Assembly: GCA_016875515.1 (NCBI GenBank)
Contig: VGRA01000005.1
Location: 1-16,677 of the forward strand
DNA from: Deltaproteobacteria bacterium
Lineage (GTDB): Bacteria; Myxococcota; Myxococcia; Myxococcales; Myxococcaceae
Direction of reading: 5' to 3'
DNA length: 16,677 bases
Shown here: one piece after another, positions 1 to 15,744 of the stretch
Position numbering within the stretch: the first letter of the stretch is position 1
Layout: every line of letters begins with the position of its first letter
The notes under the pieces: generated by a model
The model's input: only the letters and a program-made list of their open reading frames with translations
Told to the model about the DNA's origin: nothing
The model's database searches: none
Made by a program: the position numbers and the translations under genes

Positions 1-1
1 C

Positions 2-1273
2 GCGTCCGCCGAGCTACCGGAGGTGGAGCCGCTGCGCGCCTACCCTGCCGCGGTGCAGGAGGCCTTCACCCGCGCGGCCCGCGCCGCCGAGTCCGGGGAC
101 ACCGCGGGGGCCACCCAGCTGCTCGAGCAGGTGCTCGCGCAGGAGCCGCGCGCGGACTTCGCCTGGACCAACCTGGGCATCCTGCAGGAGCCCACGGACG
201 GGGCGAAGGCGGAGTCCTCCTACCGCAAGGCGCTCTCGCTCGCCCCGGACCAGGACCGGGCCTGGGACGCGCTCGGACGGCTCTTGTGCCGCACCGGGCG
301 GTGCGAGGCCTTCCTCGCCGAGGCGCGCGCGCGCACGGCGAAGAAGCCGAAGTCGCTGGGTCCCCGCAACGCGCTCGGCTTTGCGCTGGTGCAGGTGGGC
401 CAGCTGGAGGAGGCCTCTGCCGCGGCCAAGGCGGTGCTCAAGGAGGACGAGCGCAACGTGCGGGCCATGCAGGTGCTCGCCCAGGTGTTTGCGCGGCAGT
501 CCAAGTGGGAGCTTGCACGCATGGTGCTGGAGCGCGCCCGCACCATTGACCCGAAGGACCCGCTCACCCACAACGCGCTCGGGCTGGTGCAGCTGCAGTT
601 CAAGACCATCCCGCGCACCACGGCACAGGAGAGCTTCGCCACCGCGGTGCGGCTGAAGCCGGACTTCGTGGAGGCGCTGTCCAACCAGGGGGCCATGCTC
701 ATCGAGGTGGATGACTTCCCGGGGGCCATTGCGCTGCTGGAGCGGGCCGTGGCGGCTGCCCCGGACTACGCGGAGGCCCGGATGAACCTGGCCAACGCCT
801 ACCGCGGGGACGGCAAGCCGGAGAAGGCGCTGGCCGAGTACCAGAAGGTCCACGCGTTGCTGCCGAAGAACGCGGACGCCTGGTTCAACCTGGGCATCCT
901 CTACCTGGACGCGGAGATGCCCAACGTGGACACCCTCGTCCGGTACGAGACCGCCCTCCAGCACTTCGCCACCTATGTGCAGGCCGGGGGCAAGGACGAG
1001 CGCGCTGACCTCTACGTGAAGGACGCGAAGAAGGCGCTGGAGAAGGAGAAGCGCCGCCGCGAGCGCGCGGAGAAGGACAAGCTGCGCAAGGCGGAGAAGG
1101 ATGCCAAGGAGGCGGCAGCGCGGGAGGCCGCCGCCAAGAAGGCCGCCGAGGAGGCGGCGAAGGAGGCCGCCCGTCAGGCCGCGTCCGAGCCGGCCCAGCC
1201 GCCTGCCGGGAACGTCCAGCAGCGCCCCCCTGAGCCCCCGCCCCCCGCGAAGCTGGGAGAGGAGTCCCCGTGA
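2..1273 (+). CDS. TPR-repeat protein, GltE/AglT-like (5' end outside window)
   Basis: The reading frame is open to the left edge. A GTG at 23 is the first possible start inside the window, but nothing signal-like follows it, so the true start and any export signal probably lie upstream. Counted from that GTG, residues 10-320 are tandem helix-turn-helix tetratricopeptide repeats with the usual W/LG...Y...A...P spacing; examples are the PDQDRAWDALG and PKNADAWFNLGILYLD stretches. Residues about 325-385 form a highly charged Lys/Glu/Ala-rich single helix, and the last 30 residues are a Pro-rich tail. TPR proteins are protein-docking scaffolds. The stop overlaps the next start as GTGA, so the two are likely translationally coupled. 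The order TPR / small secreted / FHA-TonB matches GltE-F-G (AglT...PglI) of Myxococcus gliding and its Nfs paralogue. Which paralogue this is cannot be decided from the sequence alone. Confidence 0.85.
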   Translation, partial: ASAELPEVEPLRAYPAAVQEAFTRAARAAESGDTAGATQLLEQVLAQEPRADFAWTNLGILQEPTDGAKAESSYRKALSLAPDQDRAWDALGRLLCRTGRCEAFLAEARARTAKKPKSLGPRNALGFALVQVGQLEEASAAAKAVLKEDERNVRAMQVLAQVFARQSKWELARMVLERARTIDPKDPLTHNALGLVQLQFKTIPRTTAQESFATAVRLKPDFVEALSNQGAMLIEVDDFPGAIALLERAVAAAPDYAEARMNLANAYRGDGKPEKALAEYQKVHALLPKNADAWFNLGILYLDAEMPNVDTLVRYETALQHFATYVQAGGKDERADLYVKDAKKALEKEKRRRERAEKDKLRKAEKDAKEAAAREAAAKKAAEEAAKEAARQAASEPAQPPAGNVQQRPPEPPPPAKLGEESP

Positions 1274-1503
1274 GAGCCCTTGCCCTGGCCCTGGCGCTGT
1301 GCGCCGCATCCGCCTCCGCCCAGGAGGCCGGCAAGAAGAAGAAGGCGGTGATCCGGCTGGACGCCATCACCGTGGAAGGAAAGATCCAGAAACCGCAGGC
1401 CTTCTACATCCTGCAGCGGTCCAACCTGGCCTTTGATGACCTGAACCGGGTGGAGACTTTCGTACCCAAGGTCGTCCAGAGCGTGGAAAAGCCCCCGTTT
1501 TGA
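1270..1503 (+). CDS. Small secreted protein, 77 aa, GltF-position
   Basis: This 77-residue protein starts at a GTG overlapping the TPR gene's stop by 4 bases, with no other spacing. Residues 1-17 are a short Ala/Leu signal peptide ending ASA before Gln18, a good signal peptidase I site. The mature part is only about 60 residues: a KKKK patch, then DAITVEGKIQKPQAFYILQR and a mixed hydrophobic-charged tail. There are no cysteines after the signal peptide and no second membrane segment, so it should be a soluble periplasmic protein. I do not recognise a named domain. Its position between a TPR protein and an FHA/TonB-tail protein is where GltF sits in the gliding gene order as I remember it, so a periplasmic adaptor role is inferred. 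The overlap, signal peptide and composition make it a real gene despite its size. Confidence 0.8.
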   Translation: MRALALALALCAASASAQEAGKKKKAVIRLDAITVEGKIQKPQAFYILQRSNLAFDDLNRVETFVPKVVQSVEKPPF

Positions 1504-1523
1504 GGTACACAGGGCGTGTCCGC

Positions 1524-1544
1524 GGGGAACTCCGGGTGTTCCCC
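1524..1544 (+). repeat. Intergenic hairpin before FHA gene
   Basis: GGGGAAC (1524-1530) and GTTCCCC (1538-1544) form a perfect 7-bp stem around a 7-base loop, in the 58-base gap between the small secreted protein and the FHA gene. There is no U-tract, so it is not a standard terminator. It ends 17 bases before the ATG and could tune expression of the downstream gene or mark an RNA processing site. Function is inferred only. Confidence 0.35.
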
Positions 1545-1561
1545 ACGCGTCCGAGCGAGCC

Positions 1562-2926
1562 ATGGCAAAACCCCTTTCCAGCAAGGTCCTCCGCGTCGGC
1601 GTGGTGCACGGCGGGCGCATCATCGAGGAGCGGCTATTCCGCAAGCCTGCGTCCATCACCGTTGGACAGGGTGCGAAGAACACGTTCTTCGTCCCGGATC
1701 CCAACCTCCCGGACAAGATGTTGGTGCTGGAGTACACGCGCACCGGGTACGCGCTCGTCTTCACCGAGGACATGGAGGGGCGCGTCCGGCTGGGCAGCGG
1801 CGCCGACGTGGACTTCGCGGCCCTGCGCGCGCAGGGCACCGCCTCCCAGCGGGGGGACAGCTGGGTCCTGGGGCTGTCCGAGCAGGACCGGGGAAAGGTC
1901 ACCCTCGGGAACCTGACGCTCCTCTTCCAGTTCGTCGTGCCTCCGCCGGAGCCCACCGCGGCGACGCTGCCCGCGAGTGCGCGCGGCAGCTTCTGGACCG
2001 GCGTGGACCGGGTGTTCGCAGGCCTGCTCAGCACCTGCATGCTGTTCGCGCTCACGCTCGCCTTCACCACGGCCCTGTCCCCCATGCCGACGGAGGAGGA
2101 GCTGAAGCTGGAGGAACTGCCGGACCGGTATGCCAAGGTGATGATGCCGGCCAAGCCGCCGGAGCCGGAGAAGCCCGCGGACAAGCCCGCCGCCAGCGAC
2201 ACCGGCAAGACCGAGGAGAAGAAGCCGGAGAAGAAGGCGGACGAGCCCATCCCCGCGGCCAAGGCGGACGCCACCCCGGCGGAGGCCGCCGCGCGCAAGG
2301 CGGCCATCCAGGAGCGCGTGGCGCAGTCCGGCATCCTGAAGATCCTCGGCAGCACAGGCGGGGCGGGCGGGGGCGCGTTCGCGGACGTGCTCGGCGGAAG
2401 CTCCGCCTCCAACGACATCAGCGCGGCCCTGGCGGGCGCGGGCGGCGTGGGCGTTGCCACGTCGGACATGCTCGGTGGGCCGGGCGGCACGGGGCCGCGC
2501 GGCGGCGCCACGGGCGAGGTGGCTACCATTGGCGCCATTGCCACCAAGGGGGTGGGCGCCGTCAACGTGGGCGAGAAGCAGGAGGTGGCCGTCAAGGCGG
2601 AGACCAAGCTGGAGGCCGCCGAGGTGGAGAGCAGCACCGTGGACCGGGAGGGGCTGGCGCGGTACGTCAAGTCCCGCCTCAAGGCCATCACCTCCTGCTA
2701 TGAGAAGGAGCTGAAGCGCAACCCGTCCCTGAAGGGGCGCGTGGTGGTGCGCTTCACCATCAAGCCTGACGGCCGCACCTCGGACGTGGACGTGGAGGAG
2801 AACACGGTGGGCAGTGACGCCGTGGGGGCCTGCATCAAGACGCTCATCAAGACGTGGACCTTCCCGTTCAAGCCGGAGGAGGAGACCACCGTGGCCTACC
2901 CGTTCGTGTTCGCCCCGGCCTCCTGA
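1562..2926 (+). CDS. FHA-like / single-TM / AgmX-PglI (TonB-like) tail protein, GltG-like
   Basis: 454 residues in four parts. Residues 8-125 are an FHA-type beta-sandwich (ITVGQGAKNTFFVPDP, GRVRLGSG, KVTLGNLTLLFQF). The usual phosphothreonine-contact residues look replaced: GQ instead of GR, and no clear S..H or NG pair. Residues about 150-172 are one hydrophobic membrane segment. Residues 175-250 are a Pro/Lys/Glu-rich TonB-like spacer, and 265-335 are very Gly-rich. Residues 360-452 form the globular periplasmic tail seen in AgmX/PglI proteins, with the conserved pair Cys379 (SCYEKEL) and Cys424 and an RVVVRFTIKPDGR core. The topology is therefore cytoplasmic FHA, inner membrane, periplasmic energy-transducer-like domain. 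This matches GltG/PglI, which couples the AglRQS proton channel to the envelope. No motor genes are present here. The ATG at 1562 is preceded only by a weak GAGCGAG ribosome site. Confidence 0.85.
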   Translation: MAKPLSSKVLRVGVVHGGRIIEERLFRKPASITVGQGAKNTFFVPDPNLPDKMLVLEYTRTGYALVFTEDMEGRVRLGSGADVDFAALRAQGTASQRGDSWVLGLSEQDRGKVTLGNLTLLFQFVVPPPEPTAATLPASARGSFWTGVDRVFAGLLSTCMLFALTLAFTTALSPMPTEEELKLEELPDRYAKVMMPAKPPEPEKPADKPAASDTGKTEEKKPEKKADEPIPAAKADATPAEAAARKAAIQERVAQSGILKILGSTGGAGGGAFADVLGGSSASNDISAALAGAGGVGVATSDMLGGPGGTGPRGGATGEVATIGAIATKGVGAVNVGEKQEVAVKAETKLEAAEVESSTVDREGLARYVKSRLKAITSCYEKELKRNPSLKGRVVVRFTIKPDGRTSDVDVEENTVGSDAVGACIKTLIKTWTFPFKPEEETTVAYPFVFAPAS

Positions 2927-2954
2927 GCGCCGGCCGTACCTCCCGGAGTCACGC

Positions 2955-3932
2955 GTGAAACCTCGCCGCCTCGAAGAGTTGTGCGACCTCATCCAGTCGC
3001 ACGAGTTCCAGTCCTGGTGGACGGAGCTCCAGCGCGCGCGCGCGGAGGAGGACACCGCACAGGAGCGGGAGGACGAGCTGCGCTCGCAGCTGGCGCTGGT
3101 GGAGTTCCGCGCCGAGCACACCCAGCGCGAGGCCATTGACGCCCTCTCGCTCGCGGGCAGCGCAGACGACGACGCGGCGCGCACCGCGGCCGAGTCCAAC
3201 ACGCTCGAGAACCAGGCCTACGTGGCGGTGGGCGAGTTCGAGGAGCAGCGGTACCGCGCCTCGGACGCCTACTACCACCAGGGGGCCGCGGAGCGGCTGG
3301 TCGAGCAGTGCAACGAGGCGCTGCGGAAGCACCCCGGGGACGCCCGGGCCGCGGACGCACTCGCCCAGGCCCGCGAGGCGCTCACCCGTTCCAGCGCCAC
3401 CCTGGACCACGAGGAGCGGCGCAAGGCGGTTGCATGGGCGCGCGTGGAGGCCCTGTGGGAGCGCTCCACCGCGGCGGGGCTGCTGGTGGCCGAGCAGAAG
3501 GTGCGCGCCGGGCGGATCCGCAAGCGCGCGGAGCGGATGTTCGCCGAGGCGGAGGAGCGCAAGCTCCGCGCGGTGGAGCTGCGCTCCCAGGCCACCGCCG
3601 CCACCGCCGCGCGGAGGAACGCAGAGCGCCGGGTCAACGGGCTCGTGGACCAGGCGCGTGTCCGCTTTGACTGCTCCGCCGGATCGGATTTCCTCTATTT
3701 CCCGCAGAAGGACCACCCGCGCCACGCGTTCTGCCTCCCGCTGGTAGAGGACCGCGAGAGCTACAACGTGGAGGTGGTGGCGCTGGCCCTCTACACCGTG
3801 GACCACCAGCGCGGCATCAGCTTCCTTGAACCCGTGGGCACGGGCAGCGCCCCGTCCATTTCCGAGGGAGACAGCCGGTTCGAGGAGTTCCTGCTGAAGG
3901 ACCGCGGGGACAAGGCCCCCCGCCCCAGCTGA
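2955..3932 (+). CDS. Cytoplasmic coiled-coil protein, function unknown
   Basis: The start is GTG 2955, supported by GGAG at 2944-2947 and by the end of the previous gene at 2926; the longer open frame to 2814 would overlap that gene. The product is 325 residues, very hydrophilic, without signal peptide or membrane segment, so it is cytoplasmic. Residues 1-225 are nearly all predicted helix with long Glu/Arg/Ala heptad-like stretches (for example REDELRSQLALVEFRAEH and RIRKRAERMFAEAEERK). A motif RKHPGDARAADALAQAREAL resembles one TPR-like helical pair. The last 90 residues are different: a compact beta-rich segment (DFLYFPQKDHPRHAFCLPLV, YNVEVVALALYTVDHQRG). I recognise no family. It lies 28 bases after the FHA gene and 16 before the cyclic-nucleotide gene, so it probably shares their transcript. 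It could be a cytosolic partner of the FHA domain, by analogy only. Confidence 0.8.
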   Translation: MKPRRLEELCDLIQSHEFQSWWTELQRARAEEDTAQEREDELRSQLALVEFRAEHTQREAIDALSLAGSADDDAARTAAESNTLENQAYVAVGEFEEQRYRASDAYYHQGAAERLVEQCNEALRKHPGDARAADALAQAREALTRSSATLDHEERRKAVAWARVEALWERSTAAGLLVAEQKVRAGRIRKRAERMFAEAEERKLRAVELRSQATAATAARRNAERRVNGLVDQARVRFDCSAGSDFLYFPQKDHPRHAFCLPLVEDRESYNVEVVALALYTVDHQRGISFLEPVGTGSAPSISEGDSRFEEFLLKDRGDKAPRPS

Positions 3933-3948
3933 CTTTCCAGGAGCCGCC

Positions 3949-4395
3949 GTGAACAAGGTTGACCATCTCGCGCAGAGCCCGTTGTTCGAGCGGTTGAGCA
4001 CCGAGGAACTCAGCTACATCTCCTCCTTGAGCCGCCCCACGCACGTGCGTGCCGGGGAGCGGATCTTCGAAGAGGGCTCCATCGGGGACAGCGTCTACAT
4101 CATCATCAAGGGCCAGGTGGAGGTCTCGCGGCGGGACATCACCGGTGAGTCCAAGCGCCTGGCCACCATCTCCGCCCCGGACTTCTTCGGCGAGATGAGC
4201 CTCATCCAGAAGGAGTTCCGATCCGCGAGCATCACCGCGCTCACGGACGTGGAGTTGCTGCAGATGTCCGCTGAAAACCTGGTCGCCTTCCGGCGCCGCT
4301 ACCGGGACGGTTTCACGTTCATCGTGATCAACATTGCCCGGGTGCTGGCGGCCCGCCTGCGGGAGTCCAGCGCCCGCCTGGCCGCCCGGCTGTAG
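3949..4395 (+). CDS. Stand-alone cyclic-nucleotide-binding domain protein
   Basis: 148 residues from GTG 3949, preceded by CCAGGAG at 3937-3943. Residues 5-115 are a complete cNMP-binding beta-roll: GERIFEEGSIGDSVYIIIKGQVEV, then the phosphate-binding cassette FFGEMSLIQKEFRSASITA. That cassette holds Glu82 and Arg91, the two positions that normally grip the ribose and phosphate, so ligand binding is plausible. The C-terminal 35 residues are one amphipathic helix. There is no helix-turn-helix, kinase or channel domain, so it cannot act like CRP on DNA by itself and more likely signals by protein contact. It follows the coiled-coil gene by 16 bases. The ligand (cAMP, cGMP or other) cannot be read from the sequence. 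It may switch the neighbouring envelope machine, which is inference. Confidence 0.9.
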   Translation: MNKVDHLAQSPLFERLSTEELSYISSLSRPTHVRAGERIFEEGSIGDSVYIIIKGQVEVSRRDITGESKRLATISAPDFFGEMSLIQKEFRSASITALTDVELLQMSAENLVAFRRRYRDGFTFIVINIARVLAARLRESSARLAARL

Positions 4396-4410
4396 CGGAA
4401 CAATTAGAGG

Positions 4411-4439
4411 GGCCAGGGCACCCGGGAAGTGGCCCTGCC
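4411..4439 (+). repeat. Hairpin after cNMP gene, possible weak terminator
   Basis: GGC-C-AGGGC at 4411-4419 can pair with GCCCTGCC at 4432-4439, giving 8 bp with one bulged C, starting 16 bases after the stop of the cNMP gene. No T-run follows, so Rho-independent termination would be inefficient. The 100-base gap it sits in (4396-4495) is the largest in the plus-strand cluster and probably separates two transcription units. I could not find a convincing -35/-10 pair in the gap. Confidence 0.3.
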
Positions 4440-4495
4440 GGTGTAGGTTCCTGTAGACTCCGCCCAATCGGCCGCACCTTGCAGATCCTGACTTC

Positions 4496-5017
4496 ATGCC
4501 CCCCACCCTTCGAGCCCTGGCGTGTGTGCTGTTCCTCCCACTGGCTGCCTGGGCGCAGCCGGCAGCTGATGGCGTCCCGGACGCGGAGAAGGTCCGGCGC
4601 AGCGGTGAGGCCGTGGCCCGCATGCGGGAGGTCCTGAAGGACAGCCTGAAGAAGCTGCAGGAGGCGCGCACCAGCAACGACGTGGTGAAGCTCAACTGCG
4701 TCAACGAGAAGCTCACGCAGATCAAGGGCCTGCTGCGCGTCTCCGAGCAGGCAGACGTGGCCCTGCAGGAGGCGCTGGCCCGGCGCGAGTCCACCACCAC
4801 GGACAAGGAGTTCAGCAAGGTGACGCTGGCTGGCCAGAAGGTGGACCTGCTGCGGACCGAGGTGGAGTCCTGCATCGGGCAGCTGGCGTTCCGCACGGAC
4901 GACCAGCAGTTGATCGAAGTGACGGAGCCCGCCTACCTGCCCCAGTGGGATCCCGCGGCCCCCGTGACCCTGGATCCCGTGACGTCACGCGCACCGCCCT
5001 CGAGCCCGACGCTGTGA
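4496..5017 (+). CDS. Small secreted helical protein, unknown
   Basis: 173 residues from ATG 4496. Residues 1-20 are a clear signal peptide ending AWA before Gln21, so the protein is periplasmic or exported. Residues 30-130 are strongly helical and charged, with two cysteines (Cys68 in KLNCVNEKL, Cys126 in VESCIGQL) that could form one disulfide across a helical hairpin. The last 40 residues are Pro/Thr-rich and probably extended. I do not recognise a family. No strong ribosome-binding site precedes the ATG. It stands 85 bases ahead of the beta-barrel gene and 100 after the cNMP gene. A role as a periplasmic accessory to the barrel/OPX pair is guessed from position only. Confidence 0.75.
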   Translation: MPPTLRALACVLFLPLAAWAQPAADGVPDAEKVRRSGEAVARMREVLKDSLKKLQEARTSNDVVKLNCVNEKLTQIKGLLRVSEQADVALQEALARRESTTTDKEFSKVTLAGQKVDLLRTEVESCIGQLAFRTDDQQLIEVTEPAYLPQWDPAAPVTLDPVTSRAPPSSPTL

Positions 5018-5102
5018 TCCCAACCGTTTCACAGCTGACCCGCGGCCCGGGTGTGCTATGCGCACGGGGCCTCCCGGTGCTTGTTCGGGGAATGCCACCG
5101 GC

Positions 5103-6344
5103 ATGACTGTCCGCGCCCTCAGGGTTCAAGCCGCGCTCGTACTGTTGCTCACGGCGGGCGGAGCCCTGCCTGCACGGGCGCAGGAGGCCGTGGAGACCGG
5201 TTTCAAGGTGGGAAACGCGCGCGTCCACCCCCAGCTGGACGTGGCCTGGGGGTATGACTCGGCAGCAGGTTTCTTCCCCACCTCGCCCTTGGCCGCGTCG
5301 AACGGGCTGGCACCGGAATGGGTGGCGCGCATCAGGCCGGGGGCACGTGCCCTGCTGCCCACCTCCATCGCAGACCTCTCCGGTGGCCTGACCCTGGACA
5401 TGGTGTGGCTCACCGGGCTGTTGTCCCCCGGCTCCGGCTCCGCCTCCCGCCTGCTCGGCGAGCTGAACCTCGGGGCCCGGTTCAACCCGCGGGGCCCGTT
5501 TGGTTTCCTCGTGGAGGAGCGGCTGGTCCGGAGCGACCGGACGGGCAATCCCGGGGCCGGGCTGGGCGTGGTGTCGTTCCGCAACGACGTGAGGCTGTCC
5601 GCGCCCATGAAGCCCGGCGGCGGCGCGCTGGAGGTCGTTCCGGCGGTGGCCTACGGCGTGGAGCTGTTCTCCTCCATCGTCAGCCAGGATCTCCCGGGCT
5701 GCACGGACGACGCGCTCTGCAAGGCCTCCGGCGCGTCCCTCTCCAACTTCCATAACCTCCGCGCAGAGTTGATGGGCAGCTACCGGTTCCTCCCCCGCAC
5801 CTCGCTGCTGCTCGACTCCAGCTTCGACGGGCGCAGCTACTTCTACGACTCGGGCAACCCGGGAGCGCTGATGCTGCGCGCCAGCGCGGGCATTGCCGGC
5901 ATGCTCCTGCCGAAGGTGGCGGGGTTGGTGAAGGTGGGCTACGCGCGCAACTTCGCCGGGGCCACGAACACCGTCATCGGGCAGCTGGAGGCGTCCTACC
6001 TGTTCAACACCCGCTCCTCCCTCCAGGTGGGCTACCTCCGGAACGTGGACCCCACGCCCACCTACGGCACCCTGGGAGATGACCGGGGTTACGTGGGCGT
6101 CAACTACGCGCTGGGGGAGAAGCTCCGGCTGACCGGGAACCTGTCGTTCGACTACCTCACCTTCGGCACCAGCCGTGCGGACATGGTCTTCGCTGCCGCT
6201 CCCTCGGCGGAGTACACCGTGACGCGCTGGCTCAGGGCGTCTGTCGGCTACGCGCTCACCGCAAGGTCCACCAACGCCTCCACCCTGTCCACCCTGAACC
6301 TGCTGCGCCACGACGTCCAGCTGCGCGCCAGCATGGCCTGGTGA
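5103..6344 (+). CDS. Outer-membrane beta-barrel paired with OPX protein (Wzp-like)
   Basis: The ATG at 5103 is preferred over the frame's first ATG at 5058, because residues 1-26 from 5103 form a textbook signal peptide ([17 protein letters not shown]...ARA, then Gln27). The 15 extra upstream residues would spoil it. GGGGA at 5087-5091 is a possible but rather distant ribosome site. The 387-residue mature protein is made of alternating polar/hydrophobic strands with short turns ([54 protein letters not shown]). It ends VQLRASMAW, an aromatic-terminated last strand as expected for Bam-inserted barrels. The gene overlaps the OPX gene by 4 bases. In Myxococcus, the short OPX proteins lack their own outer-membrane pore and are paired with dedicated barrels (WzpX, WzpS, WzpB). 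That context is the main reason for the call. It is a member of the general barrel class by sequence, with its substrate inferred. Confidence 0.8.
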
Positions 6345-6964
6345 ACCGGATGGGCGCCTCCCGCCTCCAGCTCTCCCTGGTCCTGCTGCTGCTCGCCGTG
6401 ACGGCGTGCCGGGCGTTCAGGCCCGAAGGGCCCTCGCTCCGCCCCTCGGACCTGCCGGCCGCGGACGGCGGCGCGGCGGAGGCGCTGGGCCCCGGGGACG
6501 TGCTGGACATCCGCATCTTCCAGGAGCCGGATCTCTCCGGGACCTGGCGCATCGCGGCGGATGGGGAGATTGACTACCCCCTGTGCGGCAAGGTGACCCT
6601 CGGCGGCCTCAGCACGGGGGCTGCCGCCCACGCGCTCGCCGAGTGCCTCAGCCGCGGCTTCGTCAAGAGCCCGCAGGTCAACGTGCAGGTCAGGGAGTAC
6701 CACTCCAGGAAAGTCTACGTCTTTGGCGAGGTGGTGCAGCCGGGGACGTTCCCCTTCCGGGACAACATGAACATCATCCAAGCCATCACCCTGGCCGGCG
6801 GCTTCAACAAGGTGGCCGCGCGCAACCAGGTGAACGTGACGCGGCTGGTGGACGGCGAGGAGAAGAAGGTCCGCGTCCCGGTGGAGGACATTGGCCGGGG
6901 CACGGAGCGGAACTTCTACCTGCAGCCCGGCGACATCGTCTTCGTGCCGGAGAGCATGTTCTAG
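6341..6964 (+). CDS. wza: Short outer-membrane polysaccharide export (OPX) lipoprotein, Wza family
   Basis: 207 residues from GTG 6341, overlapping the barrel stop as GTGA. ATG 6350 is a possible alternative start. A hydrophobic stretch ends in the lipobox VTAC with Cys23 as the acylation site. Residues about 46-118 are the Poly_export domain ([19 protein letters not shown]...[15 protein letters not shown]). Residues 122-175 are an SLBB-type beta-grasp domain ([16 protein letters not shown]...AITLAGGF), and the chain ends with [18 protein letters not shown]. coli Wza has further SLBB repeats and a C-terminal helix that spans the outer membrane. Here both are absent, so it belongs to the short OPX class that needs a separate porin. 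It would guide polysaccharide through the periplasm to the adjoining barrel. No synthesis genes are nearby, reminiscent of the isolated WzpB/WzaB pair of the Myxococcus biosurfactant pathway as I recall it. Confidence 0.93.
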
Positions 6965-7776
6965 CGACGCGGCTGCCACCCCAGCGCGTCCAGGAAGGCG
7001 GTGCTCTCCGCCCGCAGCAGCGGCTCCAACCGCACTCCGCACGCCAGGATGTGCCCGCCGTCCAGCTGCAGCGGCTCGCCGCGCGTGCCAGTGGCCACCC
7101 CGCCCGCCTCGCGCACCAGCAGCGCCCCGGCGGCCACGTCCCACGGCTTCAGGCCGAACTCGAAGAAGCCGTCGTACCGGCCCGCGGCCACCCAGGCCAG
7201 GTCCAGCGCCGCTGCCCCCATGCGGCGGATGCCCTGTGCCCGCTGGACGAAGCGGTTGAACATCCCGAGCGGCACCTCCGGCCGCTCCCGCACGTCGTAG
7301 GGAAAGCCCGTGCAGAGCAGCGCCCGGTCCAGGCGCTCGACCGGGCTCACCTGCAGCGGCGCCCCGTCCACGTGCGCCCGCAGCCCCAGCCCGGCGCTGA
7401 ACAGCTCGCCCCGCAAGGGGTCCGCAACGGCCCCCGCCAGCAGCCCTCCCGGTCCCTCCACCGCCACCGAGACGCAGAAGTGCGGCACGCCGTGGGCGTA
7501 GTTGGTGGTCCCGTCCAGGGGATCAATGATCCACCGGAACGGTGCCCCCACCCCGCCCGCCCCGCTCTCCTCGGCGAGCACGCCATGATCCGGGTGACGC
7601 GCGCGCAGGTACTCCAGGATGACCTGCTCGGACGCCTGGTCCGCGTCCGTGACGAGGTCAATGCCGCCCTTATAGGCCACCGTGCGCGGGCCGTTGAAGC
7701 GCTCGGCCAGCACCGCCGCCGCCCGCCGCGCCGCCTCCTCCGCGTCTGCGCGCAGCCCCGCTACGTCCACCGTCAC
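6961..7776 (-). CDS. Inositol-monophosphatase family phosphatase (SuhB/CysQ-like)
   Basis: 271 residues, GTG start at 7776-7774 overlapping the TlpA stop (GTGA). All metal-site signatures of the family are present: GVLAEES (Glu69/70), [12 protein letters not shown] (Asp85, Asp88) and [17 protein letters not shown] (Asp213). [23 protein letters not shown] is the segment that closes the active site. It is a Mg2+-dependent phosphomonoesterase acting on inositol phosphates, fructose-1,6-bisphosphate, PAP or another small phosphate; the sequence does not separate these. It is cytoplasmic and of normal family length. It is last in the five-gene minus-strand operon. Its TAG stop (CTA on plus, 6961-6963) shares three bases with the convergent OPX stop, so there is no room for a terminator between the two units. 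Confidence 0.93.
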
Positions 7777-13997: not shown

Positions 13998-14070
13998 TCC
14001 CCGATAGCTCAGCTGGTAGAGCAGCGGACTGTTAATCCGCGTGTCCCTGGTTCGAGTCCAGGTCGGGGAG
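13998..14070 (+). tRNA. tRNA-Asn (anticodon GTT)
   Basis: A full cloverleaf can be drawn. The acceptor stem TCCCCGA (13998-14004) pairs with TCGGGGA (14063-14069), with discriminator G14070. The D arm is GCTCAGCTGGTAGAGC. The anticodon stem GCGGA/TCCGC encloses loop CTGTTAA, with GTT at 14031-14033. The T arm CCTGG/CCAGG encloses TTCGAGT. The 3' CCA is not encoded. The gene reads AAC/AAU as asparagine. It lies between housekeeping genes on the left and accessory-type genes on the right. Confidence 0.97.
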
Positions 14071-14116
14071 CTACTTGAGCGTCCGCACCAACGGTCGCTC
14101 CCCAAGTTTAAACAAA

Positions 14117-14142
14117 GCCCTCGGAGAGAAATCTCCGGGGGC
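14117..14142. terminator. Strong hairpin downstream of tRNA, likely terminator
   Basis: An 11-bp stem (14117-14127 with 14132-14142, one G-T wobble) closes a GAAA tetraloop. On the plus strand it is followed by GTCGTCTTTCCC, a weak U-tract. On the minus strand it is followed by TTTGTTTAAAC, a better one. It is well placed to end tRNA-Asn transcription 47 bases after the tRNA and to block antisense transcription from the right. The flanking GTTTAAAC (14107-14114) is an 8-base palindrome. Confidence 0.55.
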
Positions 14143-14216
14143 GTCGTCTTTCCCGCCCTGTATTCCGGGCAGTTGCGCTCCCCTCCCCGCCTACGTGGCT
14201 CTGGACAGGGTTCGAG

Positions 14217-14398
14217 CAGAGAGCGATTCGGCACCCAGGTGGCGCGCCCCGAGGGCGCTCTGGACGGCTCTCGCGCTCTCTGTCTCGTCCAGTGGGGAGA
14301 GAGAAACAGAGAGCGTTTAACGGTTTGGCCCCTCCAGCGTGGACGGGTCCGCGACAGGTTAACTGTCCACCTCGGGCGCGCCCGCCCGACGCTCTCTG
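14217..14398. repeat. Four alternating copies of CAGAGAGCG
   Basis: CAGAGAGCG occurs at 14217-14225 and 14307-14315. Its exact reverse complement CGCTCTCTG occurs at 14274-14282 and 14390-14398. The order is forward, reverse, forward, reverse. The middle two extend to a perfect 10-bp inverted repeat (14274-14283 with 14306-14315) around a 22-base loop, followed by TTTAA. In RNA, segments could pair 1-2 and 3-4, or 2-3, so alternative folds are possible. Confidence 0.8.
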
Positions 14399-14453
14399 GA
14401 GCGCCATGCCGGCCCCCGGCGCGGACACACCCGGCCGCTTTCCGCCTCGTGTC

Positions 14454-14475
14454 CGCCACCGTAGTGGCGTATAAA
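14454..14475 (+). promoter_or_regulatory. Palindrome plus TATAAA, candidate promoter/operator of nuclease gene
   Basis: CGCCAC-CGTA-GTGGCG (14454-14469) is a perfect 6-bp inverted repeat with a 4-base centre. It directly abuts TATAAA (14470-14475), 5 of 6 for a -10 box. No good -35 lies 16-18 bases upstream, so an activator or another sigma factor may be needed. The palindrome would fall in the spacer, where a repressor or MerR-type regulator could bind. Transcription would start near 14482, leaving a leader of about 87 bases before the ATG at 14569. Confidence 0.35.
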
Positions 14476-14568
14476 GCCCGCCAGTCTCAGAGAAACAATG
14501 AGCGCCGCGACGCCAACCGCCGGGAATCCGGGGGCTTCCGTGCGGCGACCACCAGCGGGTCACTTCAC

Positions 14569-15744
14569 ATGAGCGAGCTTTCCCCAGCGCAGGAAGAACA
14601 CCTCTACGGGCGCATCGCCTCCATCCTGGACGAGGCGCGCACCCGCGTCGCGCGTTCCATCAACACCGCGATGGTCCACGCCTACTGGCTCGTCGGGCGG
14701 GAGATTGTCGAGGTCGAGCAGCACGGCGCGGAGCGGGCCGCCTACGGCGAAGGGCTCATGAAGCGGGTGGCCGCACGGCTCTCCGCGAAGTTCGGCAAGG
14801 GCTTCAGCCTCGCCAGCCTCAAGCGAATGAAGCAGTTCTACCTGGCCTTCCCGCAGGGCTCGGCACTGTCCGCGGCCGCAGGCGGAAAAGGCTCAACAGC
14901 GCTGAGCCTTTCTGGCGAGGCGGACGGGGGCGAGAAAGGCGCAACGGCGTTGAGCCTTTCGCAGGACGCCTCGCCCCGCTTCCCGCCCTCGCTGGCCTGG
15001 TCGCACTACCTCGTGCTGCTTCGCGTGGGCCGGCCTGAAGCGCGTGCCTTCTACGAGATTGAGGCCGCACGCGAGAGCTGGTCCGTGAGGGAGCTCGAGC
15101 GGCAGGTGGGCTCGCTGCTCTTCGATCGGCTCGCGAAGAACAAGAGCCCGGAGCAGGTGCTCGAGCTCGCGCGGAAGGGGCAGCAGGTGTCCGTGGCGGA
15201 CGACGTCCTCAAGGATCCGTTCGTGCTCGAGTTCGCCGACCTCCGCGACAACCCGGCCGCTCAGGAGCGCGATCTCGAGCAGGCCATCATCGACCGGCTC
15301 GAGGACTTCCTGCTCGAGATGGGGAAGGGGTTCTGCTTCGTCGCGCGGCAGAAGCGGCTGACGCTGGAGGGCGACCACTTCTACGTCGACCTCGTCTTCT
15401 ACAACCGGCTGCTGCGCTGCTTCGTCCTCGTCGACCTCAAGATGGGGAAGCTGTCGCACCAGGACCTCGGGCAGATGCAGATGTACGTGAACTTCTTCGA
15501 CCGCTTCCAGCGCGAGGAACACGAGGCGAAGACCATCGGCATCGTCCTCTGCTCGGACAAGAACGACGCGATGGTCCGCATCACCTTGCCCGACGAGAAG
15601 GAGCAGGTCCGCGCTGCGCGGTACCAGATGTACCTCCCCACCGAGGAGGAACTCCGTGCCGAGCTGTCGCGCGAGCGCGAGGAAGTCGAACGCGTCCTGC
15701 GACTGACTGCAGAGACTTCAGGGGCCGACGATGCCGAGGGCTGA
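14569..15744 (+). CDS. YhcG/DUF1016-family PDDEXK nuclease with internal repeat insertion
   Basis: 391 residues from ATG 14569. The open frame runs back to 14041, inside the tRNA, so the long version is artefactual. Residues 10-95 and 141-200 match the DUF1016 N-terminal domain (AYWLVGREIVE, FGKGFSLASLKRMKQFYLAFP, LAWSHYLVLLRV, ARAFYEIEAARESWSVRELERQ). Residues 210-365 are the PDDEXK-type C-terminal domain: Glu250, Asp274 in FYVDLVFYNR, then Asp289-Leu-Lys291 where homologues usually have ELK, and Gln302 in LGQMQMY. Residues 97-138 are a low-complexity insertion with KGSTALSLS and KGATALSLS, encoded by two palindromic DNA units. The family is widespread in defence islands and near restriction-modification genes. 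Its biological role is not settled, and nuclease activity is inferred from the fold. The stop overlaps the next gene's start by 14 bases. Confidence 0.92.
   Translation: MSELSPAQEEHLYGRIASILDEARTRVARSINTAMVHAYWLVGREIVEVEQHGAERAAYGEGLMKRVAARLSAKFGKGFSLASLKRMKQFYLAFPQGSALSAAAGGKGSTALSLSGEADGGEKGATALSLSQDASPRFPPSLAWSHYLVLLRVGRPEARAFYEIEAARESWSVRELERQVGSLLFDRLAKNKSPEQVLELARKGQQVSVADDVLKDPFVLEFADLRDNPAAQERDLEQAIIDRLEDFLLEMGKGFCFVARQKRLTLEGDHFYVDLVFYNRLLRCFVLVDLKMGKLSHQDLGQMQMYVNFFDRFQREEHEAKTIGIVLCSDKNDAMVRITLPDEKEQVRAARYQMYLPTEEELRAELSREREEVERVLRLTAETSGADDAEG
14887..14960 (+). repeat. Two 26-base palindromic units in tandem inside the nuclease gene
   Basis: Unit 1 is 14887-14912 and unit 2 is 14935-14960. 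They differ at 3 of 26 positions and are spaced 48 bases (16 codons) apart. Unit 1 is a perfect 9-bp inverted repeat, AAAGGCTCA...TGAGCCTTT, with a 7-base loop. Unit 2 is AAAGGC...GCCTTT with an inner CAAC/GTTG pair. Both are in frame and read K-G-[ST/AT]-A-L-S-L-S. They sit exactly where the nuclease has an insertion relative to the family. Confidence 0.85.

Follow-up and report, generated by a model that had tools for sequence, protein, structure and literature searches.

The window analysed here is a stretch of 16,677 nucleotides that makes up the entire contig C5 of a myxobacterial genome assembly of 3.9 Mb, which is fragmented and 87% complete. Eight plus-strand genes span positions 2–6964, with gaps of no more than 100 nt and two 4-base overlaps. 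The first three resemble gltE, gltF and gltG of the gliding (Glt) machinery and its sporulation (Nfs) paralogue, and the last two encode an outer-membrane beta-barrel and an outer-membrane polysaccharide export (OPX) lipoprotein. The physical and evolutionary linkage of this Glt/Nfs-like module to the porin/OPX pair lies far above chance; it is strongly supported by synteny, control loci and co-occurrence. The features are as follows.

2..1273, plus strand: GltE-like tetratricopeptide repeat (TPR) protein (E), 5' end truncated at the contig start; TPR families, NCBIfam GltE at 81.4 bits (cut-off 225), syntenic with E in relatives
1270..1503, plus strand: GltF/CglF-like small secreted protein (F); NCBIfam CglF at 32.5 bits, 6e-8 (cut-off 90); the syntenic F proteins of relatives are up to 80% identical to it
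1562..2926, plus strand: GltG-like transducer (G); GltG at 183.9 bits (cut-off 650), AgmX/PglI tail (myxo_SS_tail) at 101.3 bits (cut-off 40), tree and structure model
2955..3932, plus strand: cytosolic coiled-coil protein (CC); no Pfam family
3949..4395, plus strand: stand-alone cyclic nucleotide (cNMP)-binding domain protein; Pfam cNMP_binding at 82.8 bits
4496..5017, plus strand: cc2, a secreted three-helix protein with two invariant Cys; open reading frame, alignment of 48, model with a predicted local distance difference test (pLDDT) score of 85
5058..6344, plus strand: predicted outer-membrane beta-barrel, WzpB-like (Wzp); BBP2_2 at 18.2 bits, below cut-off, in the syntenic position of WzpB
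6341..6964, plus strand: short OPX lipoprotein, WzaB-like, class 3 (Wza); Poly_export at 48–117 and SLBB at 124–202 of 207 residues
6961..7776, minus strand: inositol monophosphatase family gene, the convergent boundary outside the module; Pfam Inositol_P at 210.9 bits

E, F and G stand in order in the window; in the same genome, contig C160 ends with the C and D homologues, and contig C284 carries mglBA. This is what gene order in relatives predicts, where C-D-E-F-G is contiguous. We lean towards a reading in which the window carries the 3' half of a Glt-like trans-envelope machine of the G4 type (G4 being a Myxococcus xanthus cluster discussed below) whose operon-like spacing continues into a composite OPX/beta-barrel translocon of the WzaB/WzpB kind. 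A promoter and terminator scan of positions 1–7400 stayed at chance level, such a scan being uninformative for a GC-rich myxobacterium. The initial annotation, made from the letters alone, had recognised the GltE-F-G likeness, and the order, the TPR protein, the small secreted protein and the AgmX/PglI tail bear it out; its FHA domain is not found by Pfam and appears only as a predicted FHA-like fold. Its list of downstream genes (coiled coil, cNMP domain, barrel and OPX) is likewise correct as far as it goes, having missed the secreted helical cc2.

Linkage to a polysaccharide exit

The order E-F-G-(CC)-cNMP-cc2-Wzp-Wza recurs in relatives. Searches found 192 G relatives, of which 80 named loci were kept, and 59 of these reach at least 5.5 kb downstream of G. 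Wza is present in 45 of the 59, cc2 in 45, Wzp in 38 and CC in 13, the last being limited to some lineages. Where G is at least 42% identical to that of the window, Wza lies within 11 kb of it in 33 of 34 loci; below 42% the count is 12 of 25. By comparison, none of 20 other G-paralogue loci of 17–18 kb (GltG/NfsG-like and others, including three G4-derived duplicates) matched Wza, Wzp, cc2 or cNMP. Co-occurrence across 59 relatives points the same way: 37 genomes hold both a G4-type G and a WzaB-type OPX, 5 only G, 4 only the OPX and 13 neither (Fisher p = 3e-6, kinship ignored), and in 30 of the 37 with both the two share a contig, 2.5–10.8 kb apart. The proposal that a Glt/Nfs-like module is linked to a porin/OPX pair, and that the two should remain neighbours in most related genomes, is thus upheld.

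The window OPX is set apart from other OPX paralogues by an identity gap, and its Poly_export and SLBB domains fill 207 residues with no room for an outer-membrane-spanning C-terminal domain, as in class 3. The barrel pairs with this class 3 OPX and fits the synteny of WzpB, an 18-stranded outer-membrane barrel type, with a Pfam match that stays below cut-off. A short OPX gene adjoining a companion barrel gene at the corresponding map position is also the arrangement of WzaB/WzpB in M. xanthus.

Gene counting extends this correspondence to the whole block. The locus of Myxococcus sp. L061 runs mglB, mglA, an A/B-like gene, C, D, E, F, G, cNMP, cc2, Wzp and Wza; its MglA and MglB fall below the NCBIfam cut-offs and were named by length, order and tag count. 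The published tags are MXAN_1926/1925 for MglB/MglA, MXAN_1922 for G4's gltD homologue, the cluster being listed in 2011 as a paralogue with no assigned function (Luciano et al. 2011, PMC3169522), and MXAN_1916/1915 for WzpB/WzaB, which were assigned in 2020–2022 as the exit for biosurfactant polysaccharide (BPS) (PMC7310880, PMC9603273, PMC9601211). All of them fit the gene count of L061, and counting locus tags puts D-E-F-G-cNMP-cc2 at MXAN_1922–1917; contig L076 of M. xanthus AM003 carries F-G-cNMP-cc2. Because of this fit, the window block, with its matching gene order, most likely corresponds to the G4 cluster plus the BPS exit, by synteny and tag arithmetic rather than by alignment to MXAN_1915. 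The earlier suggestion of a third machine has to be amended, since G4 was already listed in PMC3169522 and the translocon corresponds to WzaB/WzpB of BPS.

Could the two halves be independent neighbours, held together by slow rearrangement or by shared regulation beside mglBA, with G4 unrelated to polysaccharide? Housekeeping genes downstream are also conserved in Myxococcaceae, Wzp-Wza occurs without G4 in two genomes, and a polar MXAN_1922 mutant was reported without a motility defect. However, the upstream flanks vary (mglBA or other genes) while the block persists, also in deep lineages; one deep group has ribosomal-protein/Obg-like flanks, recognised by eye. In some of the deep lineages the block is then followed by Wzc or Wzy. 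Together with the joint absence of both parts in 13 of 59 genomes and the empty control loci, this makes mere neighbourhood unlikely, and gene-order inertia alone is disfavoured by the deep lineages with other flanks.

Placement of the G protein and its probable motor

The window G combines an FHA-like cytosolic domain (~5–127), one transmembrane (TM) helix (~150–172), a linker and an AgmX/PglI tail (~346–454) resembling the TonB C-terminal domain (TonB-CTD). Pfam detects no FHA domain in it, and its genome has 18 PF00498 matches, all of them on contigs other than C5; the FHA-like fold comes from a structure model and fold comparison. Of 63 aligned G relatives, 47 have Q, S or H at the position that we take to be that of the canonical FHA Arg, so the predicted domain reads as a degenerate FHA.

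The protein order E-F-G and C-D is shared with the ordinary clusters for gliding (GltG) and sporulation (NfsG), and the block might simply be one of these. This identification is highly improbable and we consider it refuted by score, tree and paralogue loci. Against the GltG equivalog NF033760, the window G reaches a score far under the cut-off and aligns with profile positions 206–648 only, lacking the GltG N-terminal region that bears the published FHA. A tree built from 98 G proteins has a branch (support 97) with 16 of the 17 paralogue rows making up one side and the window on the other; the remaining paralogue, L165, is a duplicate derived from G4. Genomes with the block also hold separate GltG/NfsG-like loci, and MXAN_1922 was reported dispensable for motility. 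The window G is accordingly not the GltG orthologue, which settles the phylogenetic check proposed with the initial annotation. The deep motor-bearing loci fall between the paralogue side and the window side, and with a weak root G4-type G as a whole is not a demonstrated single clade.

A TolQ-TolR-TolR motor lies between F and G in 8 of the 80 kept loci. Four of the motor-bearing loci also carry Wza (L115, L125, L127 and L128), while the contig of L133 ends too early to tell. L115 and L127 run motor-G-cc2-Wzp-Wza-Wzc; in L132 Wza is followed by a Wzy_C protein, a relative of which is present in L124 and L128. Wzc with a nucleotide-sugar dehydrogenase, as carried by L108 and L119, would suit a polymer of uronic acids like BPS. 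A further 40 loci from deep in the phylum were selected by cc2 alone: 10 have G, all of them with Wza, another 4 have Wza but lack G, and in the other 26 neither gene lies near cc2. The whole motor precedes G in nine of the ten (one of these, L279, being the same contig as L128), and the tenth shows two TolR genes at a contig edge.

Motors elsewhere in the genomes of relatives split into clade A (45–54% identity to the L115 TolQ), called at 174 bits or more among 39 relatives, and lower-identity sets B. All 28 relatives that have a G4-type G possess clade A, as against a single one, G049, of the 11 that lack such a G (p = 2e-8, uncorrected). It nests among the motors embedded in G4 loci (100/96, with one outgroup row on the wrong side), and does so again with a coherent five-row outgroup (100/97), whereas B and five more G4-negative motors (G020, G039, G046, G047 and G051) lie outside the embedded-plus-A branch (98/96). 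In G050 no TolQ match exceeded 61 bits. The window's own genome has its clade-A set on C48 (L236, 221–2192), with TolQ, TolR and TolR and the membrane Asp retained in both TolR.

M. xanthus is reported to have one additional complete set besides AglRQS, MXAN_3003–3005 (M2), so clade A is probably M2. B would be AglR-type, as we infer also from G4-negative genomes such as G011, with Glt-type loci and only clade B; an NCBIfam search could not name either clade as M2 or AglR. A published two-hybrid analysis saw no interaction of MXAN_3003 with GltG or NfsG, consistent with M2 having another partner. The likely motor of G4 is the second TolQRR set, not AglRQS.

Proposed mechanism and its alternatives

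The content, order and conservation of the genes, the descent of the motors and the co-occurrence counts show that G4 has evolved as a unit with a polysaccharide exit and with a motor lineage of its own; its folds are predicted ones. Regarding function, we propose, with a probability of about 0.55, that G4, M2 and WzpB/WzaB are parts of a single proton-driven machine whose substrate is an exported polysaccharide. A TolQ-TolR-TolR proton channel, embedded in deep lineages and unlinked, probably as M2, in Myxococcaceae, would drive the TM helix of G. G would act as a TonB/TolA-like transducer, its periplasmic tail passing work via the TPR proteins C, D and E, together with F and cc2, to the Wza/Wzp translocon. 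This would energise the export of polysaccharide or else the positioning of the export complex along the envelope, with the FHA-like domain and the cNMP protein as cytosolic inputs. We infer for this machine co-transcription, physical contact, energy coupling, cNMP control and, in Myxococcus, BPS as the polymer.

Two kinds of known system invite comparison. With TonB and TolA, which transduce energy to outer-membrane barrels, G shares, by analogy, a TonB-CTD-like end and, in most relatives, a TM helix with an S-x3-H pair, but the window system differs by its FHA-like cytosolic domain and Glt-type periplasmic partners. With Agl-Nfs and Agl-Glt it shares the C, D, E, F and G set, the FHA-like cytosolic domain, the TonB-like tail and, probably, a TolQR-type motor, but its G stands outside the GltG/NfsG branch, its likely motor belongs to another clade, OPX and porin are in the block, and cNMP and cc2 proteins are added.

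Several observations weigh against the proposal. First, module and exit do come apart: L059, the exception at high G identity, has E-F-G without the exporter, and G040 and G046 keep Wzp-Wza beside mglBA with C-G gone, which means that the translocon can occur on its own. G042, G044 and G053 hold cc2-Wzp-Wza apart from G, G049 has cc2-Wzp-Wza on a short contig in a genome without a G4-type G, and the 26 deep loci with cc2 but neither G nor Wza nearby include some short contigs. Second, the motor correlation has blemishes. G040, scored without G4 and clade A, has a second, divergent TolQ (branch 3.4) that falls among the embedded motors. The TolQ of L236 scores 152 bits, under the 174-bit limit, and only the trees place it in clade A, so this limit is imperfect; the same TolQ has a long branch in the trees and a changed GTxxGL stretch. 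The window G itself lacks both S and H of the TM-helix pair. With window G and own TolQ both divergent, the machine may be altered in this lineage, possibly by a joint change of motor and transducer. Third, a polar MXAN_1922 mutation had no appreciable motility effect (PMC3169522). Deletion of wzaB is reported to give a BPS-minus phenotype and BPS-minus strains to spread poorly by type IV pili, and a motility defect would be expected of the polar mutant if the operon reached wzaB.

Alternatively, the machine may not power export at all and instead carry exporting complexes or nascent polymer directionally round the cell, as Agl-Nfs does. Nfs, the Glt paralogue, is reported to move with spore-coat polymer on AglRQS, the full set of C to G homologues is present, and mglA, part of the polarity switch, lies upstream in 26 of the 55 loci having at least 9 kb there. 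BPS, however, is reported to be released rather than retained on the cell, which leaves no obvious surface polymer to move, and GltH, GltI and GltJ were not named among the scanned neighbours, at which no search for them was aimed. We regard such placement as possible but rather doubtful.

Returning to the proton-driven machine, what is new here is the embedded TolQ-TolR-TolR in deep lineages, sometimes with Wzc or Wzy after the exporter, and a second, unlinked motor tied to G4. To our knowledge, the export of polysaccharide across the outer membrane is not usually described as using a proton-driven motor of its own; the embedded motor in the block of distant relatives suggests that export or placement of a sugar polymer may be motor-driven, and the machine reading offers a testable function. 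A more specific version, held tentatively, is that three unexplained M. xanthus loci (G4, M2 and the orphan wzpB/wzaB) make one machine energising BPS release via the OPX/barrel translocon, which would be a TonB-like exporter across Myxococcota with shared ancestry with the gliding machine.

In the text available to us, MXAN_1915 figures in PMC7310880 as an orphan-like OPX gene located 1.016 Mb away from the BPS cluster. Neighbours of Glt type go unmentioned in the text on WzaB/WzpB: 'glt' occurs 0 times in PMC9603273, and in PMC7310880 and PMC9601211 only for gliding or a gltB control. The text of PMC3169522 does not state the adjacency of G4 to wzpB/wzaB, embedded motors or a link to M2. Among the papers listed by a literature search, with subscription papers and preprints outside its scope, none tied G4 to BPS export.

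The cNMP protein, cc2 and minor observations

The phosphate-binding cassette, which we take to be the G-E ... R-S-A-[TS] motif of cNMP-binding proteins, is retained in 62 of 62 aligned cNMP-domain sequences. With these presumed binding residues kept, a cNMP response of the module is plausible. In L128, L113, L106, L120 and L048 a large secreted protein of ~1280–1900 residues follows cNMP, lying between cNMP and cc2 where both exist; that of L128, the sole one scanned, has FG-GAP repeats, and the window has no such gene.

Of 193 genomes sampled from the phylum, 145 contain a match to the cc2 family, usually a single one. The protein has 1069 homologues, and among the 120 matches listed none carries a functional name; a fold search with the cc2 model gave no match at E <= 0.001. 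In some of 15 deep loci inspected it sits among apparent housekeeping genes, and the deep loci without G or Wza nearby, several on short contigs, led us to drop it as a polysaccharide-specific marker. Weak matches of cc2 to Succ_DH or Avd, and of CC to a DECH helicase, were likewise dropped. At L301 (7746–10667) a cc2-family protein adjoins another, divergent TolQ-TolR-TolR set.

Other loci deserve brief mention. At L176 (9100–13200) and L183 (1213–4900) mglBA is close to Wzp-Wza with no C-G between, which looks like natural module deletion. The divergent G040 TolQ stands with a TolR2-like gene at L314 (G040:C1:2936001-2941000). A second G4-related G paralogue, ~34–40% identical and with no exporter or other module genes nearby, occurs at L114, L116, L118, L123, L129, L134 and L164–L166. 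The record of L072, titled Comamonas sp. KCTC 72670, is a myxobacterial locus sister to G023 in the G tree and is probably mislabelled or contaminated. At the right end of the window, a YhcG/DUF1016-family PDDEXK nuclease gene (14041–15744) looks like an accessory gene beside a tRNA, and tRNA-Asn (13998–14071) overlaps an early start of its open reading frame.

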